NCBI RefSeq assembly: GCF_004341885.1 | Contig: NZ_SLVX01000024.1 | Coordinates: 1 to 64,000 of the forward strand | Length of the DNA stretch: 64,000 bases | From: Shinella granuli | GTDB taxonomy: Bacteria > Pseudomonadota > Alphaproteobacteria > Rhizobiales > Rhizobiaceae | Reading direction: 5' to 3' | Shown here: piece after piece, positions 475-17,012 of the stretch | How positions within the stretch are numbered: the stretch's first letter is position 1 | Layout of the letters: each line of letters starts with the position of its first letter | Translations under genes and position numbers: made by a program | The notes under the pieces: model-generated | Seen by the model: only the letters and a program-made list of their open reading frames with translations | Database searches by the model: none | What the model was told of the DNA's origin: nothing

Positions 475-514
475 AGAGTGTTTTCGCGCTTCGAAGAAAG
501 GCGGAAATGCTCTA
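475..514. repeat. Imperfect palindrome of the common rhizobial intergenic type, overlapping a stop codon
   Basis: Arms AGAGTGTTTTCGC and GCGGAAATGCTCT pair at 10 of 13 positions, better in RNA with G-U pairs, around a TTCGAAGAAAG loop. Similar AGAGC-TTTCCG-TTCGAA palindromes are, from memory, very common between genes in Rhizobiaceae. The right arm covers the TAG stop of the transporter ATPase gene ending at 512, so in the transcript it would form a 3'-end hairpin and may act as terminator or stabiliser. Confidence 0.5.
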
Positions 515-1312
515 GTGCGCGACCAGAATGCCCTTGGCCTCAAAGATGTCGCGAATCTTGCGGACATAGCCGTGATAATCCTTGTTCTCATGTATCCTGC
601 TCCACTGGCGGGGGCGGGGCATGTCGATATTGAGGTCGAGGTCGACGCGGCCCGGACGGGGCGACATCACCAGCACGCGGTCCGCGAGAAACACCGCCTC
701 GTCAATGCCGTGGGTGATGAACAGCACGGTGTTGCCAAGCCGCATCCACATGGACTGGAGATCCATGATCATCTGTTCGCGCGTCAGCGCATCGAGCGCG
801 CCGAACGGCTCGTCCATCAGCAGGAGGCCGGGCTCCTGGATCAGCGCACGGCAGATCGCCACGCGCTGGCGCATGCCGCCGGAAAGCTCGGAGGGATATT
901 TGTTGCCGAACCCTTCGAGCCCGACCTGGGCCAGCAGTTCCTCCGCACGGCCCCGGTATCTGGCAACATCCAGCCTTTTGATCTCGATGGGCAGCAGGAT
1001 GTTTTCGAGCACGGTGCGCCAGTAAAGCAGGAGATCGGACTGGAAGACGACGCCGATCTTGGGATGCGGCTTGCTGATGGCCTCCCCATCGATGGCGATC
1101 GTGCCGGTCGAGGCTCCGATCAGGCCGGCAAGCAGCGACAGAAGCGTGCTCTTGCCGCAACCGCTCGGCCCGACCACGGCGACAAATGTGCCGGGCTCGA
1201 ACTTGAGGTCGATCTTGTCGAGCGCCACGACATCTTCGTCTTCGCGCGTCTTGTAGATCTTCGAGAGCCGGGAGATGTCGACCGCCGCACCCGTCTGGAC
1301 AATGGCATTCAT
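512..1312 (-). CDS. ABC transporter ATP-binding protein, nitrate/sulfonate/taurine (SsuB/TauB) type
   Basis: 266 residues, typical for the SsuB/TauB/ThiZ family. Walker A GPSGCGKST lies near residue 50, the signature LSGGMRQRV near 140 and Walker B LLLMDEPFGALDA just after, followed by the H-loop FITHGIDEA. It should energise the permease at 1358-2185. It is the last gene of the importer operon, 45 bases after the permease. The family imports small anionic or heterocyclic solutes; the substrate cannot be read from the ATPase. Confidence 0.93.
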   Translation of the reverse strand: MNAIVQTGAAVDISRLSKIYKTREDEDVVALDKIDLKFEPGTFVAVVGPSGCGKSTLLSLLAGLIGASTGTIAIDGEAISKPHPKIGVVFQSDLLLYWRTVLENILLPIEIKRLDVARYRGRAEELLAQVGLEGFGNKYPSELSGGMRQRVAICRALIQEPGLLLMDEPFGALDALTREQMIMDLQSMWMRLGNTVLFITHGIDEAVFLADRVLVMSPRPGRVDLDLNIDMPRPRQWSRIHENKDYHGYVRKIRDIFEAKGILVAH

Positions 1313-1357
1313 GGAATTACCTCACCTGAATCTTTCGATGTTTGAGCGGCCGCCGGC

Positions 1358-2185
1358 CTATTTGGTGTCGCGCTTGTAGGTGACGCGGCTCTCGACGAAG
1401 TCGATGACGAAATAGAGCATGACACCAAGCCCGGAGATGGCGACGACGGTCGCGAAATTCAGCGTGGTGTCGAACAGGGAGTTGGCCTGGAGCTGCAGGT
1501 AGCCAAGCCCGCGTTCGGCAGCGACGTATTCGCCGATGACCGCACCGATGACGGCGAGCGACACCGCCACTTTGAACCCCCCGAATATGTTGGGAAGCGC
1601 CGCCGGCAGGCGCACCTTGAAGAAGGTCTGCCATTCGCTGGCCCCCATGGAGCGAACGAGGTTGACGAGGTTCTTGTCCAGCGCCTGGAGACCGACGACG
1701 GTCGAGATGACGATGGGAAAGAACGAAATCAAAAAGGCGAGCGTGATCTTCGGCGCCCAGCCATAGCCCAGATAGAGCACCAGCAGCGGCGCCAGCGCCA
1801 CCTTCGGCACGGTCTGCAGCGCGACGAGGATCGGATAGATGGCACGCTCGAACGCACGCGAGTAGAATATCGCGAGCGCCAGGGGTATGCCGACCAGCAC
1901 GCCCATCGCAAATCCGGAAACGACCTCGAACAGGGTGACGTAGGCATGGGTGGCGAGCAGGGGAAGCTCGTTGACGATCCGCGTGGCGATCGCCACCGGT
2001 GTCGGCAGGACGAATTCCGAAAGCCCGGAAAGCGGAACCAGGACCTGCCAGGCCGCAAGCAACACGGTCGCGAGAATGACCGCCGAATAGCGTTCGAGCC
2101 ATGGTCCTCGCGATTTCTTCCTGCGCATGGCCTTGTCCTGCTTTGACTGCGCGCGATCGGCGCCTAATACATTCGTGCTCGCCAC
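1358..2185 (-). CDS. ABC transporter permease, SsuC/TauC type
   Basis: 275 residues with about six membrane segments and the BPD_transp_1 EAA loop (VRSMGASEWQTFFKVRLPAALPNIFGG) that contacts the ATPase. The start is GTG at 2185, seven bases after the stop of the binding-protein gene and behind a GAGGTTAC ribosome site. It forms the inner-membrane channel of the importer encoded at 512-3188. Confidence 0.9.
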   Translation of the reverse strand: MASTNVLGADRAQSKQDKAMRRKKSRGPWLERYSAVILATVLLAAWQVLVPLSGLSEFVLPTPVAIATRIVNELPLLATHAYVTLFEVVSGFAMGVLVGIPLALAIFYSRAFERAIYPILVALQTVPKVALAPLLVLYLGYGWAPKITLAFLISFFPIVISTVVGLQALDKNLVNLVRSMGASEWQTFFKVRLPAALPNIFGGFKVAVSLAVIGAVIGEYVAAERGLGYLQLQANSLFDTTLNFATVVAISGLGVMLYFVIDFVESRVTYKRDTK

Positions 2186-2192
2186 CGTAACC

Positions 2193-3188
2193 TCACTGAG
2201 TCAGAAAGTCGTTCGTATAGAAGGTCGAAGCCGGCTTGGGATCGCCGATGTCCTCGGCGCTGCCGACCAGTTTGAGCGCATCGACGATCGCCTTCTCCTC
2301 GATCCAGCCGAGGGGCTTGCCGTCAGCGGGCGCGTGGAGCGATGCCGACGTCGCCTCGATCTGCTGCTGGACGACCTTGTCCGAGGGACCGGCCTGCCAG
2401 ACCGCCTTGAGCGCTGCGGTCGCGGCCGCCGGATCGGACCGCGTCATCTCGATCGCCTTGGCATTGGCGGCAAGGAAGCTCTTCAGCGCCGCCCCCCTCT
2501 TGGCAATGCCATCGTCGCTCGCCACCACCGCCATGCCGGGAATGGCGAGGCCATATTCGGTCATGTCGAGCGTCGGGAACGTCTGGCCGGTCCTGTCTTC
2601 GAGAACGGGCAGGTCATTGGTCCTGTAGACGCTGACCACGTCGACCTGGCCCTGCAGGAACTGCGGAACCCGCGACTGGGAGTCCATCTGGATCTTCGAG
2701 ACCTTGCTGCAATCCACCTGGTTGATTTCGCAGAAGGCATCGAGATAGGACGTGCCGGTCTCGCCGACCGCATGGGCAATGGTCTTGCCTTCCAGGTCCT
2801 TCGGCGTCGTCACCGCCTTGTCGGCATGCGAGATCAGGGCAATCGGCGTTTCCGGCTGGTAGAGCGCTATGATCTTGACCGGCATTCCCTTCTGAATGGC
2901 GGAAATGGCGAAGATCCCGGGCAGGATGACGGCGTCTTCCTGGCCCTGGATGAGCGAGCCGAGCGCCGCCTGCGAGCCGGCGCCCTCGCCGAGCTTGAGG
3001 GCGACGCCGGCATCCTTGTAGACGCCCTTCTGTTCACCGAGATAAAAGAAACCGTATTCGCCCTTCAACTTCCAGCTGAAACGGACCTTGACCTCCTCGG
3101 CCATGGCGCCCTGGCTCGCCACAAGCGTGGCGACGGCGGTTGTCGCGACGAGTGCGGCACCGCGAATGACACGTGTAATGTGCAACAT
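2193..3188 (-). CDS. ABC transporter substrate-binding protein, NMT1/SsuA-like
   Basis: 331 residues. An upstream in-frame ATG at 3224 exists, but GGGAGGAG directly precedes the ATG at 3188, which also gives a clean signal peptide ending in ...SQGAMAEE. The mature part shows VRFSWKLKGEYGFFYLGEQKGVY and GSQAALGSLIQGQEDAV, the NMT1/THI5-like fold used for pyrimidine, sulfonate and similar ligands. It is the first gene of its operon and lies downstream of operator A (3292-3310). Its place in a regulon of ring-opening amidohydrolases suggests an N-heterocycle or cyclic amide ligand; that is inference. Confidence 0.88.
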   Translation of the reverse strand: MLHITRVIRGAALVATTAVATLVASQGAMAEEVKVRFSWKLKGEYGFFYLGEQKGVYKDAGVALKLGEGAGSQAALGSLIQGQEDAVILPGIFAISAIQKGMPVKIIALYQPETPIALISHADKAVTTPKDLEGKTIAHAVGETGTSYLDAFCEINQVDCSKVSKIQMDSQSRVPQFLQGQVDVVSVYRTNDLPVLEDRTGQTFPTLDMTEYGLAIPGMAVVASDDGIAKRGAALKSFLAANAKAIEMTRSDPAAATAALKAVWQAGPSDKVVQQQIEATSASLHAPADGKPLGWIEEKAIVDALKLVGSAEDIGDPKPASTFYTNDFLTQ

Positions 3189-3291
3189 TTCACTCCTCCC
3201 TAGCGGACGCCCGCTGGCGTCCAATTGGCTTCATGCCTCATGTCTTCCCCAAGGATCGAACCGGGGCCTCCTACCCCATCAGCTCAATTCT

Positions 3292-3327
3292 TGATCTCAT
3301 AGTGTGATCACATTTAAGGATTGTCAA
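3292..3327 (-). promoter_or_regulatory. Promoter with GntR-type operator A for the importer operon
   Basis: On the minus strand a -35 TTGACA (3327-3322) is followed after 17 bases by CACTAT (3304-3299). The palindrome TGATCTCATAGTGTGATCA (3292-3310) covers the -10 element, so a bound repressor would block polymerase. The predicted leader to the ATG at 3188 is about 100 bases. Matching palindromes lie at 5860, 12782 and 16978. The rest of the 333-base gap 3189-3521 shows nothing else I can support. Confidence 0.7.
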
Positions 3328-3521
3328 GGGGAGAATCTGCGAGAAATTGCGCGGCATTCCTGCCGATCGACATGCCCGGGCCGGTGGCCCCGTGCATCAT
3401 CCAATGTTCGGGAATCTCTTGTAAATTTCACGCGCGCCACGCCGCACAATCGCCCGTTGCCGGGCAGGATTGCGCGGGTGTCGGCCCTTTCCGGCAGGGC
3501 ACGATGAGGCCACTTATCGCC

Positions 3522-4520
3522 TCACCTTGTCGAGGCAAAAATACTCGGCAACGCGTTTTCAATGGCCGCGCGGCTCAGGTCCCTGGCGATGAACACCAGC
3601 CAGCCGCCCGAGGTGCCTTCCGGCCAGCGCGGCAGGTATTCCGGCGGGTAGACGACATGCTGGACCCCGTGGATGACGACGGGGCGGGGATCACCCGCCA
3701 CGGACAGCAGACCCTTGACCCGCAGGATGGACTGGCCCCGGCTGGCGAGCAGCAATTCCAGCCAGTCGACGAAGGCCGGCCAGTCCACGGGGTCGTCGAT
3801 ATCGACGACGAAGGTCTCGACGCCGGCGCTGTGCCGGCCGCGGAGCGGGACATCGGAAATGTCGAGATGGCGCGGCCGCCGATCTCCGGCCTTTTCGAAG
3901 ATCTCGCCGGCGCCCGGCATCTCCGCCTTGCTGGAGACGAGCTGGCCGACCGTCGGATTGATCGTGGCGATGTCGTTGCGAAGCGCGTCCAGCCGCCAGG
4001 GCTCGGCAAGATCGGACTTGGTCACGACCACGCAGTCGGCCAGCGCCACCTGCTGGACGGCTTCGGCGAACCGGGCGAGCGTTCCCGCGCCCCCTATGCC
4101 ATCGACCGTGGAGACGATCGTGCCGGCGCGATAGCCGCGTCTCAGCCGCAGGTCGCTCATCACCGCCTGCATGATCGGGGCAGGGTCGGCAAGCCCCGTC
4201 GTCTCGACGACAACGCGGCGAAACGGCGCCACCGCCCCGCGCCGCACCATTTCCAGCATATCCGCAAGCGTCGAAACCAGATCGTCCCGCACCGCGCAGC
4301 ACAAACAGCCCGAGGACAGCAGCACGGCGTCTTCGGACACTTCGCGGACCAGCAGATGGTCGAGGCCGACCTCGCCGAACTCGTTGATGACGACAGCGGT
4401 GTCGGCGAAGTCCGGTTCGCCGAGCAGGTGGCGCAGGAAGGTTGTCTTGCCGCTGCCGAGAAAGCCGGTCAGGACATGGACGGGAATGCGATCATCCGAA
4501 ACGGAAGCGCCGGGCTGCAC
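3522..4520 (-). CDS. G3E-family (CobW/COG0523) GTPase, putative metallochaperone
   Basis: 332 residues. P-loop GFLGSGKTTFLRHLL lies near the N-terminus, the metal-binding CxCC motif as SGCLCC, a VVETTGLADP switch region and the guanine-specificity motif TKSD; a CobW C-terminal domain follows. COG0523 proteins deliver Zn, Co or other metals to target enzymes. The GTG start at 4520 is two bases after the RidA stop, so it is coupled to RidA and GntR. Several neighbours are metal-dependent amidohydrolases, so a role in metallating them is plausible; that is inference from position. Confidence 0.85.
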   Translation of the reverse strand: MQPGASVSDDRIPVHVLTGFLGSGKTTFLRHLLGEPDFADTAVVINEFGEVGLDHLLVREVSEDAVLLSSGCLCCAVRDDLVSTLADMLEMVRRGAVAPFRRVVVETTGLADPAPIMQAVMSDLRLRRGYRAGTIVSTVDGIGGAGTLARFAEAVQQVALADCVVVTKSDLAEPWRLDALRNDIATINPTVGQLVSSKAEMPGAGEIFEKAGDRRPRHLDISDVPLRGRHSAGVETFVVDIDDPVDWPAFVDWLELLLASRGQSILRVKGLLSVAGDPRPVVIHGVQHVVYPPEYLPRWPEGTSGGWLVFIARDLSRAAIENALPSIFASTR

Positions 4521-4522
4521 GG

Positions 4523-4990
4523 TCAGCGGACCTCGAAGATCGCGTCGATCTCGACCGGCACGTTTCGTGGCAGCGAATAGCAGCCGACAGCCGCACGGGC
4601 ATGGCGCCCCGCTTCGCCGAAAATCTCGACCATCAGATCGGACGCGCCATTGATGACCTTCGGGTGGTCCTTGAAATCCGGCTCGGCATTGACGAAACCG
4701 CCCAGCCGGATCACGCCGACGACGCGGTCGAGATCACCGTCCAGCGCCTCCTTGAGCTGGGCGAGGATGTTGACGGCGCACAGGCGCGCCGCCGCCTGCC
4801 CCTCCTCGACCGAGAAGTCGGAGCCGAGCTTGCCGGTGAACTTGTCCTTGCCGCCCTCGGCGGGCACCTGGCCGGAAACATAGACCTGGCTGCCATGGCG
4901 GCGCGCCGGCACATAATTGGCCAGTGGAGCCGTCGTCGTCGGCAGCACGATGCCCAGGCTCGCCAGTTTGTCGTCGATATTCCCCGCCAC
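4523..4990 (-). CDS. RidA/YjgF/UK114-family protein
   Basis: 155 residues. The GTG at 4990 is preceded by GGGGAGG at a normal distance. The RidA fold shows in VYVSGQVPAEGG, a VVGVIRLGGFVN strand and the C-terminal VPVEIDAIFEV. The family deaminates reactive enamine/imine intermediates; the RutC branch acts in pyrimidine catabolism. It lies between the GntR regulator and the G3E GTPase. Together with the deaminases and hydantoinase in the regulon it suggests clean-up of an imine or enamine released from an N-heterocycle. Confidence 0.88.
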   Translation of the reverse strand: MAGNIDDKLASLGIVLPTTTAPLANYVPARRHGSQVYVSGQVPAEGGKDKFTGKLGSDFSVEEGQAAARLCAVNILAQLKEALDGDLDRVVGVIRLGGFVNAEPDFKDHPKVINGASDLMVEIFGEAGRHARAAVGCYSLPRNVPVEIDAIFEVR

Positions 4991-5013
4991 GATGGTTCCT
5001 CCCCTGGGAAATG

Positions 5014-5775
5014 TCAGTAGTCGAATTGCAGTTCCGGCCCGTGGGCGAAAGGCAGTTCCAGCCCCTGCGGGCCGGCCACGCTGAGCAGAGCCTTGCAGGT
5101 GGTGCGGATGTCGTGGACGATGCCCTTCTTGGCCGCCGAGGCGTTCTTCTCCTTGAGAGCCGCAAGGATATCCTTGTGGTCCGAAGCGTTCCACGGCATC
5201 GAGGGTATCAAAAGCGACATGTACATGGTCGGGCCGAACTGCAGCCATAGCGATTCGATCAGCGGCATCAGCACTTCGCTGTCCGCCGCATCGTACAGCG
5301 TGAAATGGAACTTCTGGTTGGACGACAGGCAGTTCAGGATGTCGCGCTTTTCGATGGCGGTCAGAAGCTGCTTGTTTATCGCCGCCAGTTCCTCCACCAA
5401 TTCGGGACCTGCCTTCTTGACGGCAAGTTCGGTCGCCATGCCTTCCAGCATCTCGCGAATCGTGAACAGCTCGCTCAATTTATCCGGCCGCAGCCTCGGC
5501 ACGCGGACCGAGCCGCCCTTGGTTTCCTCCAGCGCGTTGGCGGCGACGAGGCGGCTGAGCACCTCGCGCACCGGCATCGGGCTGGTGCCGAGCCCGACGG
5601 CCAGCTTGCGCAGGCTCATCACCTGCCCCGGCAGAAAGGCGCCGACCATAAGCCCGCGCCGCATGTAGCGAAGGACATGTTCATGGACATGGCCGCGCGC
5701 CGGCTTTTCCGCAGCGCCGCCGTTGACCTCGTTTTCCGGCTTCTTGATCGGCATCCTGTCTTCAGACTCCGTCAT
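5014..5775 (-). CDS. GntR-family transcriptional regulator, FCD (FadR/VanR) subgroup
   Basis: 253 residues. The N-terminal winged helix (about 30-100) contains MSLRKLAVGLGTSPMPVREVL; the FCD ligand domain (about 105-240) has the His set expected for metal and effector binding (NQKFHFTLY, NASDHKDIL, KKGIVHDI). It is first in an operon with RidA and the GTPase, and divergent from the amidohydrolase at 5982. It is the natural candidate to bind the 19-bp TGATC...GATCA palindromes found at four promoters nearby. FCD regulators are usually repressors released by a pathway intermediate. Confidence 0.92.
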   Translation of the reverse strand: MTESEDRMPIKKPENEVNGGAAEKPARGHVHEHVLRYMRRGLMVGAFLPGQVMSLRKLAVGLGTSPMPVREVLSRLVAANALEETKGGSVRVPRLRPDKLSELFTIREMLEGMATELAVKKAGPELVEELAAINKQLLTAIEKRDILNCLSSNQKFHFTLYDAADSEVLMPLIESLWLQFGPTMYMSLLIPSMPWNASDHKDILAALKEKNASAAKKGIVHDIRTTCKALLSVAGPQGLELPFAHGPELQFDY

Positions 5776-5841
5776 CTTGTCTCAAATCCGCGATCCGCCA
5801 AAAGGCCTATCCCACCATGCCCCGCCCGTCGGCCTCAGGGG

Positions 5842-5878
5842 TTGACAGGTCGGGATTTGTGATCTCACATTGTGATCA
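5842..5878 (+). promoter_or_regulatory. Promoter with GntR-type operator B, between gntR and the amidohydrolase gene
   Basis: Plus-strand -35 TTGACA (5842-5847), 17-base spacer and TCACAT (5865-5870). The palindrome TGATCTCACATTGTGATCA (5860-5878) covers the -10. The leader to the ATG at 5982 is about 100 bases, as in operator A. Its place in the gntR divergent gap suggests it also autoregulates gntR. Confidence 0.7.
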
Positions 5879-5981
5879 ATAAACGACTTTTCACAAAACG
5901 GCAACCTTTAACTGTGCTGCCGGTCCGCGCCCGAGATCCGAAAGGGAAAGTCGTCCCGCGATCCCCTGGGGAGAATGAGAT

Positions 5982-7355
5982 ATGGCTGCAATCGTTTCCG
6001 ACCAGTCTGCCCTGCGTGCGCAACTCGACAGCGCCGCCCGTCTCGGCCGATACGTGCTGCGGAATGTGCGCCTCTGCGCGGCGACCACGAGAACGGACGC
6101 CGCAAACGCCGCAGGCACCGAGTTCTTCCTGGCGGATGCAAGTGTAGAGAAGGGCAGAATATTGGCAATAACGCCTGCCTCTCCTTGCCACGCCGCGGCA
6201 AGCGACCCGGACCTGCCTGCCATCGATGCCGGCGGCCGCGTCGTGATCCCGTCCTTCGTCGACTGCCACACGCATCTCGACAAGGGCCACATCCTGCCGC
6301 GCACACCCGCGGCGGACGGCACGTTCGACGGGGCGTTGGCAGCAACGCGGTGCGACCGCACGGCCAGGTGGTCCGCCGGCGACCTCGGCAGACGCATCGA
6401 TTTCGCCCTTCGCTCGGCCTTTCACTACGGCACATCCGCCATCCGCACGCATCTCGATTCGCAGCCGCCGCAGGACGGGATCTCCTGGCCCCTGTTCCTC
6501 GAACTCCGGCAGCATTGGCGCGGGCGGATCGCCCTGCAGGCCTCGTGCCTGTTTCCCATCGACATGGCGCGGGACGACGCATTCCTGCGCGCCATTGCAA
6601 GGCGGGTCGCCGATGCCGGAGGCGTGCTCGGCGCGGTCGCCTATCCGCTGCCCGATATCGACCACCTGCTCGACAGGATGTTCCGGGCAGCCGCTGATCA
6701 CGGGCTGGATCTCGACTTCCATGCCGACGAGAGCGCCGACCCGGCCGCCGATGTGCTGCGCCGCATCGCCGACACGGCATTGCGCGTGTCTTTCGCAGGC
6801 AAGATACTGGTCGGGCACTGCTGCTCCCTGGCGATGCAGGCACCCCCGGTTGTCGACGCGACGCTCGACAAGGTCGCGGCGGCCGGCATCACCGTCGTCT
6901 CCTTGCCGGCCTGCAATCTCTACCTGCAGGATCGCAGCAGGCAGGGCATGACGCCGCGCTGGCGTGGCGTCACCCTGCTGCACGAAATGAAGCGGCGCGG
7001 GATACCCGTCGCGCTCGCCTCGGACAACACACGCGACCCGTTCAATTCCTACGGGGACCTCGACATGCTCGACACGTTCCGCCTCGGCACGCGCGCCCTT
7101 CATCTCGACCATCCCCACGGCGACTGGATCAAGGCGGTTTCCACGACACCGGCGCAGATCATGCGCCTGGACGGCCATGGCGTCATCGCAACGGGGCAAC
7201 CGGCCGACCTGATCATTTTCGAGGGGCGTTCCTGGTCGGAGATCCTCTCGCGGGCGGAGAGCGACCGCATCGTCATGCGAATGGGTTCGCCGATTTCCGC
7301 CCCCCTGCCCGTTTACGCGGAACTCGATGCGCTGGAAGGGCTGGCGCCGGCGTGA
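5982..7355 (+). CDS. Amidohydrolase-superfamily protein, cytosine-deaminase (CodA) like
   Basis: 457 residues. Metal-site motifs of the cytosine deaminase branch occur in order: FVDCHTHLDKGH, a mid-barrel HADES, GHCCSLA and the catalytic-Asp motif ASDNTRDPF. The C-terminal strand carries GQPADLIIFEG. Cytosine/creatinine/isoguanine deaminases hydrolyse an exocyclic amino group on a ring. It is a single gene behind operator B, ending at a shared terminator. Deamination of a cyclic amidine would give the cyclic ureide type that the hydantoinase-like enzyme at 9365 could open. The exact substrate is unknown. Confidence 0.85.
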   Translation: MAAIVSDQSALRAQLDSAARLGRYVLRNVRLCAATTRTDAANAAGTEFFLADASVEKGRILAITPASPCHAAASDPDLPAIDAGGRVVIPSFVDCHTHLDKGHILPRTPAADGTFDGALAATRCDRTARWSAGDLGRRIDFALRSAFHYGTSAIRTHLDSQPPQDGISWPLFLELRQHWRGRIALQASCLFPIDMARDDAFLRAIARRVADAGGVLGAVAYPLPDIDHLLDRMFRAAADHGLDLDFHADESADPAADVLRRIADTALRVSFAGKILVGHCCSLAMQAPPVVDATLDKVAAAGITVVSLPACNLYLQDRSRQGMTPRWRGVTLLHEMKRRGIPVALASDNTRDPFNSYGDLDMLDTFRLGTRALHLDHPHGDWIKAVSTTPAQIMRLDGHGVIATGQPADLIIFEGRSWSEILSRAESDRIVMRMGSPISAPLPVYAELDALEGLAPA

Positions 7356-7417
7356 CGGCATCAGGCGCGGCGATGGACCGTCCGTCCGTCGCCGTCATGC
7401 AAGTCGCCGCACCAACA

Positions 7418-9368: not shown

Positions 9369-10711
9369 GCCGGCACGGTCACGCAACGGCCGCGGCCGTA
9401 GTGCCGCGCGTCGACGGCGCCGTTCTCATAGACGACCTCCCCGCGCGCGACCGTCATCACCGGCCAGCCCTTCAGTGTCCAGCCCTCGTAGATGCAGGTG
9501 CCCTTGCCCGTGTGCTCGACCGTGCGCTCCTCATCAAGGTCGACCAGAACGAGGTCCGCGTCGAAGCCGACGTCGATATGGCCCTTGCGCGGCCAGAGAC
9601 CGAAGCGGCGCGCCGGATTGAACGAATTGAGCTCGACCAGACGGCTGAGCGGCAGCCCGCGCTGGTGCACGCCGAAGTGCAGCATCAGCGACAGCTCCCA
9701 GGGGAAGCTGACGACGCCGGGGAACTCCGTCCAGAGGTCCTCGAGCTTCTTGGGCAGGAACGGCACGTGATCGGTGCCCAGGCCGTAGACCGAGCCGTTG
9801 AGCATACCGGCCCACAGGCCTTCCAGCTCGTTGCGGTCGCGCAGCGGCGGCGAGATCTTGGCGCGCATGTCGAGATCGTCGTCATAGCAGGTGCGCGTCA
9901 GGTAGTGCGGGCAGGTTTCCACCGTGACATGAATGCCGCGGGCCTGCGCCTCGGCGGCGAGGACCGGCCCCATGCCGACCGATGTGTGCACGAGATGCAG
10001 CGAACAACCGGTCTTCTCGGCCAGGAAGATCATGCGCCGGATCGTTTCGACCTCGCAGAAGGCCGGGCGCGATTCCGTATAGGCACCGAGGTCCTGGCGC
10101 CCGGTCGCGGCGATCTCCTTCTTGATCCACGAGGCGATCTGGGTGTTCTCGCAATGGACGTTGATCACCGCGCCGGGGATCTTCGACAGGATGCGCATGG
10201 CGGCGTAGACCCAGCCGTCGGTCGCCGGAACGATGCCGATCGGGTTGTCGGGCTCGTAGCCGAAATAGCACTTGAAGGACTTCACGCCGGTCTTGGCGAC
10301 GATTTCGGGGATTTCGGCGATATGCTCCTCGCGCTGGATGCCGAAGTGGAAACCGAAATCGATGACCGCATTCTCCTCCCCGAGCGCCTTGCGCTCCTCG
10401 TAGAACGGCAGGTAGGATTCCTTCAGATTGCGGATATAGAGCAGTGCCGTGGTCACGCCTCCGGACGCGGCGGCGGCCGTCTCGGTCCGCATGTCCTCCG
10501 GGAACGGAAACTTCACGCCGAGATGGCAATGCGGATCGATCAGGCCCGGCATCAGGACGCGGCCCTCGGCGTCGATGATGCGGGTGGCGTCCGGCAGGAC
10601 CTCGTCCGCGCCGGTCAGCACGATCTTGCCGTCCTTGACGGCGACCCCGCCGAAATACTCGCCGTCGTGGCGAACCACGCGCGCGTTCTTGATGACCAGA
10701 TCCACCTTCAT
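9365..10711 (-). CDS. Dihydropyrimidinase/hydantoinase/dihydroorotase-family amidohydrolase
   Basis: 448 residues. The binuclear site is visible: HxH as DPHCHLG, carboxylated Lys in SFKCYFGY, His in NVHCEN, His in HLVHTS and Asp in GTDHVP. These enzymes open cyclic amides such as dihydropyrimidines, hydantoins and allantoin to carbamoyl acids. The ATG at 10711 overlaps the stop of the DpaA-like gene, and its own stop overlaps the next ATG. It would make the carbamoyl product on which the isochorismatase-type hydrolase at 7497 could act. Confidence 0.9.
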   Translation of the reverse strand: MKVDLVIKNARVVRHDGEYFGGVAVKDGKIVLTGADEVLPDATRIIDAEGRVLMPGLIDPHCHLGVKFPFPEDMRTETAAAASGGVTTALLYIRNLKESYLPFYEERKALGEENAVIDFGFHFGIQREEHIAEIPEIVAKTGVKSFKCYFGYEPDNPIGIVPATDGWVYAAMRILSKIPGAVINVHCENTQIASWIKKEIAATGRQDLGAYTESRPAFCEVETIRRMIFLAEKTGCSLHLVHTSVGMGPVLAAEAQARGIHVTVETCPHYLTRTCYDDDLDMRAKISPPLRDRNELEGLWAGMLNGSVYGLGTDHVPFLPKKLEDLWTEFPGVVSFPWELSLMLHFGVHQRGLPLSRLVELNSFNPARRFGLWPRKGHIDVGFDADLVLVDLDEERTVEHTGKGTCIYEGWTLKGWPVMTVARGEVVYENGAVDARHYGRGRCVTVPA

Positions 10712-11598
10712 TGCCCTTGCTCCAATATGCCTTCAATACGCCTGCTGATGCCGGTCCACTGGCTGCGTCCCACGGTGATCGGCGCCCGCGCGCCCATGCC
10801 CCGGGCCCAGACCGCCTTCAGCCCGAGTTCACCGGCCGCTTCGCGGTCGATCGTGCCCGGCGGGGCCGCCACATCCACCAGAAGCGCATGCTTGGGCAGC
10901 ATTTCGAGCTGCTCGCGCTCCATCAGGCGCTTCGGCACGCTTCCGATCACGATGTCCATCCTGGGCAGGAATTCGGGCAACTCCTCCAATGTCAGCGACT
11001 GCGCGCCGGCCGCATAGGCAGCGGCACGCTGCACCGGGTTTCGCGCCGCGACATGGACATGGGCGCCGAGCGCCACCAGCGTGCTGGTCAGCAACGAGCC
11101 GATGGTGCCCTGTCCCACGAGCATGACGTTCGACTTGTGGATCGTGATCTGCGTGTTCTCGATGATCACCTTCAGCACGCCCTCGACAATTGCCGGGCCG
11201 CGCAGCAGCATCAGATCGACGTCCCACTCATATTCATGCAGCGTGATGCCGAGCGCCTCGCAATGCCCTTTCAGATTGGCGTCGGCCCAGCCGAGGATGA
11301 TGTGGCCCGGCGTGTTCATGCCCGCGAGCATGTCGCGTGTCGGAATGATCTTCTCGGGGCACTTCGGCGCAAACAGCGCGCCCTCCGCCGTGATGCCGGG
11401 GATCGGGAAGAGGGCGATATCCGCCCCCTTGAGCGCATCGGCCGCATCCCTGGCATGGTAGACGCCTTCGATGCCCTCGTCCGGCCAGGGGAAACCATAG
11501 GCGCGCACGGTCGCGCCGGCGCGCAGGGCGCAGCGGGCGATTTCCTGCTCGCGGGCATCCCCCGCAACGACCGCGATCACTGTGTTCTTCCAGCTCAT
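10708..11598 (-). CDS. Dipicolinate synthase subunit A (DpaA/SpoVFA)-like dehydrogenase
   Basis: 296 residues. The N-terminal IAVVAGDAREQEIARCALR and YGFPWPDEGIEGVY match the DpaA N-terminal domain; ITIHKSNVMLVGQGTIGSLL and LVALGAHVHVAARNP are its NAD(P)-binding Rossmann part; VDVAAPPGTIDREAAGELG and ARGMGARAPITVGRSQW match the C-terminal end. In spore formers DpaA with DpaB makes dipicolinate from a dihydroxy-tetrahydrodipicolinate. No DpaB is present here and the host type does not sporulate, so an analogous oxidation of a cyclic imino acid is more likely. The ATG at 11598 overlaps the upstream stop. Confidence 0.8.
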   Translation of the reverse strand: MSWKNTVIAVVAGDAREQEIARCALRAGATVRAYGFPWPDEGIEGVYHARDAADALKGADIALFPIPGITAEGALFAPKCPEKIIPTRDMLAGMNTPGHIILGWADANLKGHCEALGITLHEYEWDVDLMLLRGPAIVEGVLKVIIENTQITIHKSNVMLVGQGTIGSLLTSTLVALGAHVHVAARNPVQRAAAYAAGAQSLTLEELPEFLPRMDIVIGSVPKRLMEREQLEMLPKHALLVDVAAPPGTIDREAAGELGLKAVWARGMGARAPITVGRSQWTGISRRIEGILEQGQ

Positions 11599-12683
11599 TT
11601 CGCCCTCACCTTCTCGATCACCTGATCCTTGCTCATCCCCGCAATGCCCATCGCCTCGGCGGTGCGGCCGCCCTCGCGATAATTGGCGCCGACCGCGATC
11701 TGCGCCAGGCTGTAGAGGGAATGGGCCACCGGCGTCTCGACGCCGGCGATCCGCGCGAATTCGAGGAACGGCAGGAGGCCGTGGCCGAAATCCTCCTTGT
11801 AATAGCGGTATTCCAGGGAATCGGGGCCCTTGATGCGCTTGTTGGCTTCGCCCCCGGCGATCGCCGCCCGGTAGTCGCTGGTGTCGACCACATCGGCCTC
11901 GACCGTGCCGAGAAGCTTCATCTCCTCGATCAGGTTCGGCAGGTCGTGCCCGAAGGCCTTGGCGACCGCCAGCCGTTCTTCGTCGAGCTGCTTCATGACG
12001 CGGGCGACGCCGGGCGTCATCGCATCGACATAGAAGGTGAAGTTGCCGCCCGTCGCCTCGACCCATGCGGCCGCCAGCACCGCGCCCGGCGGATGCAGGA
12101 CCATGTTGACGTTGGAAAGATCCGAAGCGATGACATCGGCGACGGGATCGAGGCCCGGGAAGAGCTTTCCGGCGATCTCCAGAACCTCCGCCCCGCCCTT
12201 CAGGGCCGCCGCCTTGAGCCGCTTGGCACGGCCGGAAACGGTCACGCCGTCCGGCCGATACTTGCGCGCCACATAGGTCAGCGTCGAGAACTCGACCACG
12301 GCCGGCGCCGGACGCCCGCTGCGCGAGAAGGTTTGCGCAAACTCCAAAGCGCCGCCGGTATGGCCCGGATTGAGGACGACGGGGCTGGACGAAGGCCAGC
12401 CTGCGGCGGCGAGCGCGGCGGCGATCGGCGAATGCGAGAAGGTCGGCAGGGCCACCACCGCGACATCGACGCCCGCGATTGCCGCCTTGAGGTCGGTGGT
12501 GATCAGCGCCGGCCTGGCAATGCCCTCGCCGAGCTTGCCTTCATGGGCGACGCCGCCTAGTTTGATATGCGGCTCGAGCGTTTCCGCCGATCTCGCCCAG
12601 AAATGCACGTCGTGCCCGGCCTGGACCAACTCCGCGACCGAGGCTGCCCCGCCCGCACCCGCGCCTAGTACTGCTACTTTCAT
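11595..12683 (-). CDS. NAD/NADP octopine/nopaline (opine) dehydrogenase family protein
   Basis: 362 residues. The N-terminal Rossmann motif is VAVLGAGAGGAASVAELVQAG; the opine dehydrogenase C-terminal domain includes the conserved SDLSNVNMVLHPPG. The family oxidises or forms secondary amino acids from a keto acid and an amino acid. It is the first gene of the six-gene operon, about 100 bases downstream of operator C. It may split an opine-like N-carboxyalkyl substrate or reduce an imine; the direction is unknown. Confidence 0.88.
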   Translation of the reverse strand: MKVAVLGAGAGGAASVAELVQAGHDVHFWARSAETLEPHIKLGGVAHEGKLGEGIARPALITTDLKAAIAGVDVAVVALPTFSHSPIAAALAAAGWPSSSPVVLNPGHTGGALEFAQTFSRSGRPAPAVVEFSTLTYVARKYRPDGVTVSGRAKRLKAAALKGGAEVLEIAGKLFPGLDPVADVIASDLSNVNMVLHPPGAVLAAAWVEATGGNFTFYVDAMTPGVARVMKQLDEERLAVAKAFGHDLPNLIEEMKLLGTVEADVVDTSDYRAAIAGGEANKRIKGPDSLEYRYYKEDFGHGLLPFLEFARIAGVETPVAHSLYSLAQIAVGANYREGGRTAEAMGIAGMSKDQVIEKVRAK

Positions 12684-12781
12684 TGTCTCCTCCGGGGGAC
12701 GGTGCGGCTGGAAGACCGCCCGACCCTATTGCTGAAACAGGTCTCATGTTCCGGTTCCAGCGGGTTGCTCCTCAACAACTT

Positions 12782-12816
12782 TGATCACACTTTATGATCA
12801 CAAATAGAATTGTCAA
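12782..12816 (-). promoter_or_regulatory. Promoter with GntR-type operator C for the six-gene operon
   Basis: Minus-strand -35 TTGACA (12816-12811) and TAAAGT (12794-12789) with 16 bases between. The palindrome TGATCACACTTTATGATCA (12782-12800) overlaps the -10 and is identical over 19 bases to the one at 16978. The remainder of the 314-base gap 12684-12997 shows no further gene or clear hairpin. Confidence 0.7.
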
Positions 12817-12997
12817 GCGGGAGAACCGCCGCAGCAAGGCCGACGCGGCTTTCCCCTTCGGCCGGCGCTCGCCGTGCCTTTCTCCAGATCGTCCGACTGC
12901 CCGGGAAGGGCTGCTCCGCCGGCACCGGCCGGTCTCTCAAGCAGCCCTTCGAACGCAGTTCGTCCGACCGTCGAACGCCGGTCAGGGATGACCCGCC

Positions 12998-14437
12998 TCA
13001 GTTTCCTTCGTCGTACAGCGTCGTGGTCGTCTCGACATTCCCTTGGTGAAGCCCGGCCCGCACCACAGCGGCGGCCGCAAGTTCCCGGGCCTTGCTGCGG
13101 ATCGCCGCCTCGTCGACGCCCTGCACCTTGCCATCGGCATAGAGTGCCTTGCCGTCCACCCAGGTCTGCGCGATCGATGCGGTCGATGCGGAGAAGACCA
13201 GCGCCTGCAGCGGATCGTAGAACGGCGTCCACTCGATATGGTCGAGGTCGAAGAGAATGAAATCCGCCTTCTTGCCCACTTCGAGCGAGCCGATTTCGTC
13301 ATCCCACATCAGCGCGCGCGCGCCCTCGATGGTGGCGGCGCGCAGCGCTTCGCGCGCGGTAAAGACATCGGGTTTCAACCGCGCATCCTTGAACATGCCC
13401 GCCACGACCAGCATCTGCCGCATGAGGTTCATGTTGCCCGCCGCCGACACGCCATCGGTTCCGAGCCCGACCTTGACGCCGGCCTTGACCATTTCGGGAT
13501 ACTTGCCGATGGACGTCGCGCCCTTGCCGAGCTTGAAGGACGAGCACGGGCAGAAGGCGACGCTCGCACCCCGCTCCGCCAGCAGCCTGACCTCGTCGTC
13601 CGAAACCGCCGCGCCATGGGCGATGACGAGATTCTTGCGGATGCCGCCGGCCTGGTCGACCCGGGTGATCGGCCAGCAGCCATACTTGCTCTCGCAGACC
13701 TTGGCCTCCTCGATCGAGGTCGCCAGATGGTAGGTCGTGCCGACGCCCAGCTTCTCGGCCAGCGCGACGGCGCCGACATGCAGTTCGAGGCTGCAAGGCT
13801 CCTTGCCCTCGATGTTCACCCAGCAGCGGGCGCGGCCGTCGAGCGTGTTGTTGTAGCGCGTGACGCACTCCTCCAGCACCTTCAGCGCCGTCTGCGCGTC
13901 CGGGAAGAAATGATGCTCGGCCATTTCCTCGGTCCAGCCGCGCGGCAACTCGGCCGGCCGGTTGTCGGCGGCGTGGCGGCCGGTGATGCCGCGGATGCCG
14001 GTCTTTTCCATCGCCCGGATGACGATGCCGGGATCGTATTGCGAGCCCATGTCGAGGAAGCAGGTCGTGCCGCACCGGAGCATCTCGGTGATGCCGAGCA
14101 GCGCGCCCCAATATTCGTCCTCCTCCGTGATGAAGGCGTAGAAGGGTTTGGCCCAGTGGAAGACCCAGGCGCGCGTGTTGAGGTTGTCGGGGAAGACCGC
14201 ACGCGACAGGGTTTCCGACAGATGGACGTGGCTGTCGACGAAGCCCGGGCACATGCCCAGCATCCTGCCATCGATCACCTTGTCGAAAGCCCTGCCCTGG
14301 TGGCGCGCCTTCACCTCGTCCGCCGCGCCGATGTCTGCGATGCGGTCGTTCTCGATCACCACGCTGGCGTTGCGCAGCACCGTGTCGTTCTTGTCGACCG
14401 TGAAAGCGAAGTTCAGATTTTCAATCAGCGTGCGCAT
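12998..14437 (-). CDS. Amidohydrolase-superfamily deaminase/dechlorinase-like protein (TrzA/AtzB/SAH-deaminase branch)
   Basis: 479 residues. Mononuclear metal-site motifs are VDSHVHLSE (HxH), GTTYHLATS, VIAHGAAV and GTDGVSAAGN. The C-terminal part has GSLEVGKKADFILFDLD. The branch includes SAH/MTA deaminase, guanine deaminase and triazine hydrolases, which remove a leaving group from a ring carbon. GGTGGAGC precedes the ATG. It is the last of three genes behind operator D, 112 bases after the M24 gene. It is the third ring-acting amidohydrolase of the regulon. Confidence 0.87.
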   Translation of the reverse strand: MRTLIENLNFAFTVDKNDTVLRNASVVIENDRIADIGAADEVKARHQGRAFDKVIDGRMLGMCPGFVDSHVHLSETLSRAVFPDNLNTRAWVFHWAKPFYAFITEEDEYWGALLGITEMLRCGTTCFLDMGSQYDPGIVIRAMEKTGIRGITGRHAADNRPAELPRGWTEEMAEHHFFPDAQTALKVLEECVTRYNNTLDGRARCWVNIEGKEPCSLELHVGAVALAEKLGVGTTYHLATSIEEAKVCESKYGCWPITRVDQAGGIRKNLVIAHGAAVSDDEVRLLAERGASVAFCPCSSFKLGKGATSIGKYPEMVKAGVKVGLGTDGVSAAGNMNLMRQMLVVAGMFKDARLKPDVFTAREALRAATIEGARALMWDDEIGSLEVGKKADFILFDLDHIEWTPFYDPLQALVFSASTASIAQTWVDGKALYADGKVQGVDEAAIRSKARELAAAAVVRAGLHQGNVETTTTLYDEGN

Positions 14438-14549
14438 GCGGCTCCACCCAATGCTCTACCAAGATTCCGTCCCGATCGCCCGCCGTGCGAGACGGCGGGC
14501 GGAATGCGCGGCTGCCAGACAGGAGACCGGCCAGCCGCCGTTCGTGCCT

Positions 14550-15722
14550 TCAGGCGACCGCCTGCGCCTTCATGCCCCGTTTGGCCGTGCCGCAGACGAT
14601 GAGCTTGTCGGTGTCGGTGTAATCGGACAGGAGTTCCGATCCGTTCGACGTCACGAGCAACATGTCCTTGTTCTGCATGCCAAAGCCGTAGCCGGTGTTG
14701 TAGCAGAGCGGCTCGAAGCCGAGGACCATGTTTTCCTCCAGCGGCGCATCGCTGCCCGGCTTGCCGAGCACCGGCGTGAGGCCGAGATAGGGATCCTCAT
14801 GGAGATGAAGGCCGATGCCGTGGCCGACGAAGGAGATCGGCGGCAGGTCGAGCTTGGCGAGCTTGGCGATGAACGCGTCGTAGATCGCGCGGCAGCTCGC
14901 GCCCGGCTTCACCTTCTCCATGATCTCGTACTTGCACTCAACCAGATGGGCCCAGATCTTGTCGGCCATGGGCGGCGCCTCACCGACGATGGCCGTCCGG
15001 CACACGCCGGCCTGGTAGCCGTCGATGACGGAGAAGATCTCGACGCGGCAGACATCCCCGCGCTTGAGGATCCGGTCGGACGGGCCGACATTCGGCAGCA
15101 CGCTGCGCTCGCCGGTGGCGACGATGAGGAGCTTGAAATGCTCCGCGCCAAGCGAATAGACGTTGCGGGTCAGGTGGCCGGCAATGTCCATTTCGCTGTC
15201 GCCCGCATCCACTTCCGCCAGCGCATCGGCAATGGCCTGGTCGGCGATGCGCGAGAGCCTGCTTAGCAGCGCGATCTCCTCGACCGTCTTGATCTGGCGC
15301 AGCCGCGCGAGGATCGGTTCGGCGTGCTCGAACCGGGCGCCGGGCATCGCTGCGATCAGCCGGGCGAAATCGCCCGCGGGCAGATAGTCCATCTCGATGC
15401 CGATGCGCGCCTTCGCAAGGCCGAGACCGGAGAGCTGGTCCGCCAGGACCAGCATCGGATCGTCGGAAAACTCCGCCCAGATGCGCGACGGCACGTCGGG
15501 CAGGCGCCGCTTGATCGTCGACGCTTCCATGTCGACGCCGAAGATGGCGCTGCGTCCATCCGCCGTGACGATCGTCATCGCGTGGCGATGGCGGATCAGC
15601 GGCTGCGACGGTACCACGAAGCCCGTCGTATAGGCGAAGTTCTCAGGCGACGAGCAAATGATGGCATCGAGCCCATGCTCCGCCATGGCCCTGACCTGTT
15701 TTGCAACGATTTCTGCCCGCAT
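14550..15722 (-). CDS. M24/creatinase-like hydrolase (Xaa-Pro peptidase fold, metal ligands mostly absent)
   Basis: 390 residues from the ATG at 15722, behind GGAGAGAGGAAAG; an ATG at 15740 is possible. It has a creatinase N-terminal domain and an M24 pita-bread domain. The two metal-binding Asp positions of aminopeptidases are changed: CRVEIFSVIDGYQAGVCRT has Glu and Gly where Asp is usual. The catalytic-type His (VGHGIGLHLHEDP) and one Glu (GFEPLCY) remain. This is the pattern of creatinase, a metal-free C-N hydrolase, rather than a peptidase. In this operon it likely cleaves an amidine, urea or amide bond in a pathway intermediate. Confidence 0.85.
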   Translation of the reverse strand: MRAEIVAKQVRAMAEHGLDAIICSSPENFAYTTGFVVPSQPLIRHRHAMTIVTADGRSAIFGVDMEASTIKRRLPDVPSRIWAEFSDDPMLVLADQLSGLGLAKARIGIEMDYLPAGDFARLIAAMPGARFEHAEPILARLRQIKTVEEIALLSRLSRIADQAIADALAEVDAGDSEMDIAGHLTRNVYSLGAEHFKLLIVATGERSVLPNVGPSDRILKRGDVCRVEIFSVIDGYQAGVCRTAIVGEAPPMADKIWAHLVECKYEIMEKVKPGASCRAIYDAFIAKLAKLDLPPISFVGHGIGLHLHEDPYLGLTPVLGKPGSDAPLEENMVLGFEPLCYNTGYGFGMQNKDMLLVTSNGSELLSDYTDTDKLIVCGTAKRGMKAQAVA

Positions 15723-15758
15723 GTTCTTTCCTCTCTCCATGAATTTCCTGGCGGACGC

Positions 15759-16916
15759 TCAGTCGCGAACGCGGTATTTTTCCACCTTGGCAAGGTCGAC
15801 ATCGATGCCCATGCCAGGCCCCGCCGGCACGACGATCGCGCCGTCGACGAACTGCATCGGCTCGACCAGGAGGTCGTCCTTGTAATAGATGCCGCCGACC
15901 TGGCCGTGCTGCGCTTCGGCCGGAGTCGATACGGGAATGACACAGGACAGGGTCACCGCCGGCGACGCCGCGGCGAGCTGGACATTGGCGAGGTTGCCGA
16001 TGCCGGTCTCGATCGATCCGTTGACGTTGCAGATGATGCCTGCGGCCCGGCAGACCGCGCCCACCTCCATCGCCTTGTAGAGGCCGCCCGCCTTTGTCGT
16101 GTAGATCGAGACGATCTGGATGCCGCCATTCTGGACGATCTGGATCGAATCATGGGCATTCCAGGCCGATTCGTCGGCCATGACCGGCGCGTCGATCCGA
16201 CGTCCGACCTCGGCGATCCGCTCGATGCCCATCACCGGCTGCTCGACATATTTGAGCCCGTTCTTCTCCATCTTGCGCACGGTCTGCACGGCTTCGCCCG
16301 GCGTCTTGTAGCCCTCGTTGGCGTCGACGCAGATCTCGACGGCATCGCCGGCGACTTCCCGCACGGCATCGACCATGGCGACATCGCGCAGCGGATCGAC
16401 GCCGATCTTAACCTTGATCGTCCTGACGCCTTCCTCGACCAGCTTGGCGACCTCGGCGCGCGCCTCCTCGATGGAGATCAGGCCGATGGAATGGGTGACC
16501 GGCACCCGGCCGCGCGCCTTGCCGCCGAGCAGGGTGTGCACGGGAACGTTCAGCCAGCGACCGGCAAGATCATAGGCGGCGAACTCGACCGCAGCCTTCG
16601 AATAGGGATAGCCGCGGATGATCGCATCCATCCGGGCATGCAGTTCTGCGAAATTGCCGAGTTCGAGCCCGATGACGGAAGGCGCGAGATAGGTGTCGAT
16701 GACCGCGCGGGTGATCATGGCGGATTCGCCGAAATAGCGGCCGAATTCCCCGCCCCAATCCTTGAGCGCCGGCGCCTCGCCCCAGCCGACCCGGCCGTCG
16801 CTGTCGGTCATCTTGACCAGGACATAACGGCCGATGACCTCGGTCAGGCCCGCCCATTTGTGCTCGCGCCGCGTGGGCAATTGGACAATCAATGTTTCGA
16901 TGGACTTGATCGTTGG
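15759..16916 (-). CDS. Enolase-superfamily protein, muconate-lactonizing (MLE) subgroup-like
   Basis: 385 residues from a GTG at 16916, spaced correctly from AGGAGAGG. Active-site signatures are KxK in TIKVKIGVD, Asp in CVDANEGY, Glu in YVEQPV, Asp in VMADESAW and Lys in YTTKAGGL. This Lys/Lys arrangement is the MLE subgroup, which includes cycloisomerases, racemases/epimerases (N-succinylamino acid racemase, dipeptide epimerase) and o-succinylbenzoate synthase. It is the first gene of the operator D operon. Epimerisation of an N-acyl or N-carbamoyl amino acid would fit the neighbours; that is inference. Confidence 0.87.
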   Translation of the reverse strand, partial: PTIKSIETLIVQLPTRREHKWAGLTEVIGRYVLVKMTDSDGRVGWGEAPALKDWGGEFGRYFGESAMITRAVIDTYLAPSVIGLELGNFAELHARMDAIIRGYPYSKAAVEFAAYDLAGRWLNVPVHTLLGGKARGRVPVTHSIGLISIEEARAEVAKLVEEGVRTIKVKIGVDPLRDVAMVDAVREVAGDAVEICVDANEGYKTPGEAVQTVRKMEKNGLKYVEQPVMGIERIAEVGRRIDAPVMADESAWNAHDSIQIVQNGGIQIVSIYTTKAGGLYKAMEVGAVCRAAGIICNVNGSIETGIGNLANVQLAAASPAVTLSCVIPVSTPAEAQHGQVGGIYYKDDLLVEPMQFVDGAIVVPAGPGMGIDVDLAKVEKYRVRD

Positions 16917-16964
16917 CACTGGCTCCACCTCTCCTTGCCGTCGCAGGCGTCTCGTTGTAAAATG

Positions 16965-17012
16965 CGATCATCTATTGTGATCACACTTTATGATCATGAT
17001 TTTGAATGTCAA
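16965..17012 (-). promoter_or_regulatory. Promoter with two overlapping GntR-type operators (D) for the 16916-12998 operon
   Basis: Minus-strand -35 TTGACA (17012-17007), 16 bases, TAAAGT (16990-16985). One palindrome is TGATCACACTTTATGATCA (16978-16996). A second, weaker one, CGATCATCTATTGTGATCA (16965-16983), shares its last six bases with the first. The double site may give tighter control. The plus-strand gene at 17058 begins 46 bases away and could be read from the same region. Confidence 0.7.

Follow-up and report, generated by a model that had tools for sequence, protein, structure and literature searches.

A conserved gene cluster under a shared operator in Shinella granuli probably encodes a catabolic regulon for a nitrogen-ring compound

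What does a bacterium break down with two amidohydrolases, a hydantoinase-like enzyme, a creatinase-like hydrolase and an opine dehydrogenase encoded side by side? This question is raised by one end of a 64,000-nucleotide stretch of Shinella granuli DNA (hereafter the window; contig NZ_SLVX01000024.1, contig 24 of the 97 that make up the 6.59-Mb assembly GCF_004341885.1), where a cluster of about 17 genes spans positions 1-17381. We propose, with a probability of about 0.8, that this cluster is a catabolic regulon for a nitrogen-ring compound. Its genes, including each open reading frame (ORF), and its operators are as follows.

1-212, minus strand: start of pntA, nicotinamide adenine dinucleotide (phosphate), NAD(P), transhydrogenase alpha; first 70 codons, the gene being cut by the contig end
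512-1312, minus strand: ABC transporter ATPase (Pfam ABC_tran)
1358-2185, minus strand: ABC transporter permease (100% identical to an annotated ABC permease of Shinella sp. HZN7)
2193-3188, minus strand: NMT1/THI5-type solute-binding protein (SBP; PF09084, 115 bits)
3292-3309: tandem operator TGATC-N8-TGATC, 104 bp upstream of the SBP gene (motif scan)
3522-4520, minus strand: CobW/G3E GTPase (PF02492, PF07683)
4523-4990, minus strand: RidA-type enamine/imine deaminase (PF14588/PF01042)
5014-5775, minus strand: GntR/FCD regulator (PF07729, PF00392)
5860-5877: tandem operator between gntR and the codA-like gene (motif scan)
5982-7355, plus strand: CodA-like amidohydrolase with intact HxDE deaminase motif (NF005759/PRK07583, 577 bits)
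7497-8486, minus strand: isochorismatase-type amidase fused to a VOC domain (triad D17-K118-C151; VOC H218/H275/E321)
8486-8683, minus strand: 4-oxalocrotonate-type tautomerase (PF01361)
8685-9368, minus strand: ORF with phytanoyl-CoA-dioxygenase (PhyH) fold, without a conserved HxD iron motif
9365-10711, minus strand: hydantoinase/dihydropyrimidinase-like ring-opening enzyme (full metal set including the carboxylated Lys position)
10708-11598, minus strand: DpaA/DpsA-like NAD(P) dehydrogenase (PF16924, 71 bits)
11595-12683, minus strand: octopine-type (opine) dehydrogenase (PF02317; structure 1bg6, 181 bits; H197/D298)
12782-12800: tandem operator upstream of the opine-dehydrogenase operon (motif scan)
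12998-14437, minus strand: TrzA-like (cog0402-type) amidohydrolase without the HxxE glutamate (T240)
14550-15722, minus strand: M24 creatinase/ectoine-hydrolase-like enzyme, metal ligands replaced
15759-16919, minus strand: enolase-superfamily enzyme with residues of the muconate-lactonizing subgroup (muconate-cycloisomerase-like)
16966-16996: triple TGATC operator between the enolase gene and the small ORF (motif scan)
17058-17381, plus strand: small ORF of 107 amino acids, conserved divergent from the enolase gene

The enzyme families named in an earlier prediction made from the sequence alone (the original prediction) are all present as intact ORFs free of internal stops, identified by Pfam or profile matches and, for the permease, by the HZN7 annotation; the gene list of that prediction omitted the VOC fusion, the PhyH-fold ORF, the CobW GTPase, the transhydrogenase start and the small ORF. 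The 17 cluster proteins are 98-100% identical to counterparts on plasmid pShin-03 of HZN7, and the regulon is plasmid-borne in the closest relatives. Purifying selection acts on all 17 compared genes, with ratios of non-synonymous to synonymous substitution rates (dN/dS) of at most 0.28; the highest of the set, 0.22-0.28, belong to the ORF at 8685-9368, which is poorly conserved yet still under purifying selection.

Co-regulation of these genes is indicated by a shared operator. TGATC boxes with a 13-bp period lie at 3292, 5860, 12782 and 16966-16996, and TGATC-N8-TGATC occurs seven times in the window against 0.28 expected, a count reached by none of 100 shuffles. Across the whole assembly, TGATCN8TGATCA has only four sites (six strand hits), all at cluster promoter regions, and the reversed-motif control gave no match. 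Because the operator is enriched in the window and confined to the cluster in the assembly, we consider the cluster genes co-regulated, and the GntR regulator is presumed to bind the tandem operators. The original prediction counted four co-regulated transcription units; the orientation of the genes predicts six units on the four operator regions. Riboswitch control was also considered and rejected, as an Rfam scan of window positions 1-22000 (E≤1) gave a single match below its family cut-off.

The second line of evidence is that the enzymes travel together. A collection was scanned with the TrzA-like alignment, and the best 80 of 113 relatives were taken (62-98% identical), 50 of which have full flanks; partners were counted by tblastn (E≤1e-6, coverage >60%). 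In these 50 loci the core partners of the TrzA-like gene are the M24 enzyme (43), the tautomerase and DpaA (41 each), the enolase and the opine dehydrogenase (39 each), the hydantoinase (37) and isochorismatase-VOC (36). The original prediction had allowed that the enzymes might scatter to unrelated neighbourhoods in relatives; this was checked, and they stay together, with at least five of these seven core enzymes in 39 of the 50 loci and all seven in 30. At the level of the order, the TrzA-like gene (E≤1e-100) was found in 5 of 397 genomes and an opine dehydrogenase of at least 55% identity in 6 of 397, including all five, the next best opine dehydrogenase in the 397 being 38% identical; the chance of this overlap is about 7e-11 by a hand calculation that ignores relatedness. 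Among close relatives, the opine dehydrogenase (E≤1e-40) occurs in 3 of 101 genomes, one of them the genome under study, and the other two carry all 17 genes; at class level it occurs in 5 of 385 genomes, in four of which its identity does not exceed 40%. The same association is seen on plasmids: of 21 records that gave a match, 14 carry an opine dehydrogenase of at least 90% identity (3 from Shinella, 10 from Aminobacter and 1 from Phyllobacterium), and six of the seven plasmid neighbourhoods viewed have the same gene order, with additions in Aminobacter. In six of the seven an annotated transhydrogenase follows the ABC ATPase gene. Plasmid pAA03 of Aminobacter aminovorans lacks the importer and transhydrogenase as well as the enolase and M24 genes and has a truncated TrzA gene; pAA01 of the same strain carries the whole cluster.

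The operator follows the genes beyond Shinella. Matches were found in 55 of 90 related loci scanned and in 33 of the 50 with full flanks, and the operators precede the same genes in alphaproteobacteria, in Variovorax JS1663 and in several beta- and some gammaproteobacterial metagenome-assembled genomes (MAGs). In the 13 genomes searched (13/13), 60 of 84 operator strand hits lie on the cluster contig by hand count, and many of the 24 elsewhere look like chance. Two of the off-contig sites are in fitting positions: one in Pelagibacterium, 105 bp before a 58% SBP homologue, and one in Cucumibacter (L151, 5290-5308), which lies on another contig 65 bp before a transporter gene. In Aminobacter MSH1, extra sites precede a second importer accompanied by a short-chain dehydrogenase/reductase (SDR), as well as a second SBP accompanied by an amidase. 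In Cucumibacter the transporter gene is followed by genes for sulfopyruvate-decarboxylase-like subunits (below cut-offs) and a CodA-like gene.

Do the conserved enzymes retain the residues needed for catalysis, and of what kind? Residue alignments left out rows with a stop, low coverage or identity below 25% and include the window sequence. The CodA-like protein, aligned from 17 of the 34 loci with any match, keeps the HxDE motif in 18 of 18 sequences; in an NCBIfam scan of ten cluster proteins (leaving out DpaA, the tautomerase, the enolase, the small ORF and the importer), it alone exceeded a cut-off, that of the cytosine-deaminase-like model NF005759/PRK07583 (577 against 403 bits). The TrzA-like protein has an invariant metal site (HxH, H, H, D; 81 of 81 aligned, after exclusion of 5 of 86 for a stop in the matched stretch), and the glutamate of its HxxE motif, which we take to be the general acid of cog0402 deaminases, is replaced by threonine in 69 and serine in 12 of the 81. 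Structures 4f0r, 3hpa and 4dyk carry glutamate at the position aligned with T240; the predicted structure (predicted local distance difference test, pLDDT, 88) is nearest to AtzA, isocytosine deaminase Vcz and AHS. The two ring deaminases originally postulated are thus not supported as such: only the CodA-like one retains its motif (18/18), whereas the TrzA-like one carries T or S for Glu throughout (81/81).

In the hydantoinase-like enzyme (49 of 50 loci aligned), H61, H63, K147, H186, H242 and D314, the binuclear site with its carboxylated lysine, are present in 50 of 50 sequences; it scores 275 bits on the allantoinase model TIGR03178 (cut-off 358) and 269 bits on the D-hydantoinase model TIGR02033 (cut-off 393), below both. 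For isochorismatase-VOC (42 of 56 loci aligned), the triad D17-K118-C151 and the VOC residues H218 and H275 are found in 43 of 43 and E321 in 42 of 43. The M24 positions that we take to be the metal ligands (Asp, Asp, His, Glu, Glu), located by alignment with prolidase, are replaced in 67 of 70 aligned sequences (7 of 76 loci with a match were left out): E228 and G239 occur in 67 of 70, the remaining three carrying D at each, and position 351 is N in 56 and I in 13. Creatinase and ectoine hydrolase are likewise M24 enzymes that have lost the metal ligands and work metal-free. The creatinase-like hydrolase of the original prediction is thus an M24-family member, with the correction that its metal ligands are lost. 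It resembles ectoine hydrolase (DoeA/EutD) in its M24 fold and scores 85 bits on that family model (TIGR02993), whereas the cut-off is 613 bits and no DoeB-type deacetylase is annotated in the cluster.

These hydrolases bear on a reading in which the cluster is creatinine or creatine catabolism in disguise. Creatinine is degraded by way of a deaminase, a hydantoinase and carbamoylsarcosine amidase, and creatinase belongs to the same scheme. The cluster contains the same enzyme classes, and its M24 enzyme, which shares with creatinase a fold without metal ligands, matches creatinase structure 1chm with 62 bits (family similarity). A carbamoylsarcosine-amidase-related structure is also among the matches of the isochorismatase (51 bits), where the closeness of the scores, with RutB at 67 and biuret hydrolase at 53 bits, keeps this comparison from deciding. 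However, the cluster annotation includes no creatininase, the glutamate typical of deaminases is missing from the TrzA-like enzyme, and the cluster adds redox, tautomerase and enolase genes: to our knowledge, creatinine breakdown requires none of the opine dehydrogenase, DpaA, enolase, tautomerase and TrzA. We regard this explanation as very unlikely. The Rut pyrimidine pathway is similar in combining RidA with an isochorismatase-type amidase, but the latter scores 76.8 bits on the RutB model TIGR03614 against a cut-off of 377.95, and the window cluster has no RutA-like gene. The parallel originally drawn with the creatinine and Rut routes accordingly finds no support in the family cut-offs (RutB, allantoinase and D-hydantoinase alike).

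The original prediction placed the redox pair in neither route, and the opine dehydrogenase is in line with this. It exceeds the PF02317 cut-off (127.6 against 30 bits) and keeps H197 and D298, presumably the catalytic His-Asp pair, in 48 of 48 aligned sequences (47 of 50 loci). Its best match among solved structures, over its full length, is N-(1-D-carboxyethyl)-L-norvaline dehydrogenase (1bg6), from which it differs in being encoded within a catabolic regulon. Pro1 and Arg11 of the tautomerase, counted after the start Met, are conserved in 55 of 55 sequences (54 of 54 loci), and the six catalytic residues of the enolase-superfamily enzyme in 56 of 56 (55 of 58 loci).

From the gene set, the conservation of catalytic residues, the shared operator and the conserved co-occurrence, all directly observed, we infer the steps of a pathway. 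The regulon would be GntR-type-controlled, hydrolytic and NAD(P)-linked, and would serve a small nitrogen heterocycle with a cyclic amidine or guanidine and a ureide- or lactam-type ring, ending in opine-type cleavage; this detailed mechanism is tentative, the balance tipping slightly against it. The NMT1-type ABC importer would take up the compound, and the CodA-like enzyme would remove an exocyclic amine. The TrzA-like enzyme, with its metal site kept and its deaminase glutamate lost, and the hydantoinase-like enzyme would open ring C-N bonds. The M24 enzyme might hydrolyse an amidine or guanidine without its metal, as creatinase and ectoine hydrolase do, and the isochorismatase would remove nitrogen from a ureido or amide group. 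Enamine or keto-enol intermediates could be handled by RidA and the tautomerase, while the DpaA-like and opine dehydrogenases would catalyse NAD(P)-linked reactions that PntAB keeps in balance. The enolase-type enzyme may act on an N-substituted amino acid by epimerisation or cyclisation, and the opine dehydrogenase would then cleave this compound to give an amino acid plus a 2-oxo acid. The product would in some relatives be handed on to malate synthase G (glyoxylate) and a D-amino-acid dehydrogenase, and in others to enzymes of 2-oxo-acid dehydrogenase type. The CobW GTPase is a probable metal chaperone for the amidohydrolases.

In some relatives, genes for the exit steps suggest that glyoxylate and 2-oxo acids are formed. 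A DadA-type gene lies beside the TrzA-like gene in 14 of the 80 loci (Aminobacter, Bradyrhizobium, Mesorhizobium (L-8-3), Pelagibacterium and MAGs), and malate synthase G lies near it in 7 of 80. In locus L085 a gene for a pyruvate dehydrogenase-type E1 alpha subunit directly follows isochorismatase-VOC (292 bits, cut-off 394), and in L077 an aldehyde dehydrogenase gene, below its curated cut-off, lies between those for the opine dehydrogenase and DpaA. Entry genes vary as well: loci L069 and L070 contain a molybdenum hydroxylase, and L055, L056 and L063 encode a reductase and a protein whose sequence reads as a Rieske-type oxygenase (85 bits against a sterol monooxygenase model whose cut-off is 600).

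Among the described systems compared, the nearest logic is that of the reductive uric acid route (XdhD, YgfK, SsnA, HyuA, YgeW, YgeY and YgeX; PMC12507026). SsnA acting with YgfK opens the yanthine ring in Escherichia coli and HyuA acts after it (PMC12507026); the cluster would share with this route the opening of two rings by a cog0402-type amidohydrolase and a hydantoinase, before ureido cleavage. A variant reductive pyrimidine or purine (uric-acid-like) catabolism, with an SsnA-like ring opener, a hydantoinase and ureido hydrolases acting on a reduced nucleobase, would also fit the transhydrogenase genes, which suggest a demand for NADPH, and the occurrence elsewhere of 67-76% identical TrzA-like genes combined variously with molybdenum hydroxylase, dihydroorotate dehydrogenase (DHODH)-, RutA- and M20-like genes (mostly by eye). 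The TrzA-like protein itself scores 123 bits on the SsnA model TIGR03314, but the cut-off is 455.5 bits. Moreover, the cluster annotation contains no YgfK-, YgeW-, YgeY- or YgeX-type gene, and the cluster genes include no YgfK/PydA-type reductase, carbamoyltransferase or pyridoxal-phosphate lyase. The cluster has instead the M24 enzyme, opine dehydrogenase, DpaA, enolase, tautomerase and isochorismatase, the first two and the enolase being enzymes that a reductive nucleobase pathway would not use. We therefore consider this variant unlikely.

Several points weigh against a catabolic regulon for a nitrogen-ring compound, or against its details. Gene order gives no reaction order; the role suggested for the TrzA-like enzyme rests on one missing residue, and the opine dehydrogenase may act on a non-opine. 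At most three of the seven core partners are present in 9 of the 50 full-flank loci, and both Chloroflexi loci lack a hydantoinase within their flanks. Accessory genes are less constant (CobW 26, GntR 24, CodA 19, SBP 19 and RidA 18 of 50), partly because flanks end. No operator match was found in 35 of the 90 loci, all actinobacterial ones included. DadA and malate synthase G were not found in the window, HZN7 or WSC3-e stretches, and Phyllobacterium gave partial matches only. Finally, genome G665 has only the GntR, enolase, M24 and opine dehydrogenase genes, with operator-like matches and without TrzA, hydantoinase, isochorismatase, DpaA or tautomerase within the 30 kb read.

The last observation suggests that one regulator might control two pathways, one in which the enolase, M24 enzyme and opine dehydrogenase act on a compound resembling an opine or amidine, and one in which TrzA, CodA, hydantoinase, isochorismatase and DpaA act on a heterocycle. 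The flanks of Rhodoplanes locus L105, which contain of the core only TrzA, DpaA and the tautomerase, are consistent with such a division. Yet all eight core genes occur together in 30 of the 50 full-flank loci, and the proposed halves are interleaved: one gene row holds the opine dehydrogenase, DpaA and hydantoinase, and another TrzA, M24 and enolase, on every plasmid viewed apart from pAA03, which is truncated. Two separate pathways hence seem improbable, and we favour a single catabolic regulon.

How general might the regulon be? Core genes were also found together in other Pseudomonadota, in Actinomycetota and, from MAGs only, in Chloroflexota and Bacteroidota; the Saprospiraceae and Chloroflexi MAG records could reflect binning errors. 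As the core recurs across phyla, soils and waters probably contain the compound commonly. It is conceivable, though doubtful, that a widespread pathway dismantles a bicyclic or amidine-type nitrogen heterocycle (for example, a pterin or the thiamine pyrimidine) to an opine-like N-carboxyalkyl amino acid, using a glutamate-less ring-opening cog0402 enzyme, a metal-free M24 amidine hydrolase and an opine dehydrogenase in catabolic C-N cleavage. Among the matches listed by our literature search, no paper supported a pterin or thiamine-pyrimidine substrate. The original prediction knew of no described pathway with this gene set, and our search by combinations of family names likewise found none, in a scope that excluded most subscription papers. 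As the operator is defined, the binding protein can be purified and laboratory strains of Shinella and Aminobacter are open to gene deletion, the substrate should be directly findable; a function could then be assigned to two groups of enzymes whose active sites are altered.

Some members of the cluster remain less well placed. A sequence search of the PDB with the NMT1-type binding protein returned two weak matches. The ORF at 8685-9368, present in 33 of the 50 full-flank loci, has the overall fold of the phytanoyl-CoA dioxygenase superfamily; among its residues conserved in 97% of 29 or 90% of 24 sequences there is one histidine (H47) and no HxD, and so not the HxD...H triad that we take to be the iron site of phytanoyl-CoA dioxygenase. 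The small ORF gave no match in a Pfam search, and a relative was found in 23 of the 50 full-flank loci. Adjoining the cluster, window positions 17438-22752 encode a TauE-like exporter, a second enolase-family enzyme, an SDR, an aldehyde dehydrogenase and an aldolase; we left this segment out of the regulon because it neighbours the cluster only in HZN7, being absent from the six other plasmid neighbourhoods, and has no TGATC-N8-TGATC match.

Other clusters share single enzymes with the regulon. Loci L086, L091 and L092, which are among the full-flank loci with few core partners, represent with L027 (Neorhizobium EC2-8) a second cluster type, in which a 67-76% identical TrzA-like gene has varying partners (mostly by eye): molybdenum hydroxylase, beta-ribofuranosylaminobenzene-5'-phosphate (beta-RFAP)-synthase-family, RutA-, DHODH- and M20-like genes. 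L092 has the beta-RFAP-synthase-family gene, which exceeds the TIGR00144 cut-off there, and L091 has the molybdenum hydroxylase; both genes were recognised by eye in L086. Methanopterin synthesis is the process from which beta-RFAP synthase is known. Two operator matches in L092 and one in L091 resemble chance. Tandem octopine-dehydrogenase-like genes (28-40% identity) in G310 (L032) and G400 (L033), which belong to another alphaproteobacterial family, were not counted, as they adjoin F420-biosynthesis-like genes (by eye); G310 also has a 58% identical M24 gene beside a CoxS/L/M-like hydroxylase (by eye). In L029 and L030, relatives of the CodA-like protein (PRK07583) of about 50% identity lie in another cluster with an ABC importer, a flavin adenine dinucleotide-dependent (FAD) oxidoreductase, an NAD(P)H-dependent oxidoreductase, RidA and a creatininase-family gene. 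On pAA03, a partial second copy of the cluster is flanked on both sides, as in a composite transposon, by genes for TniQ, TniB and a Mu-type transposase (L022, 9162-12517 and 27469-30824) that share the same protein accessions.

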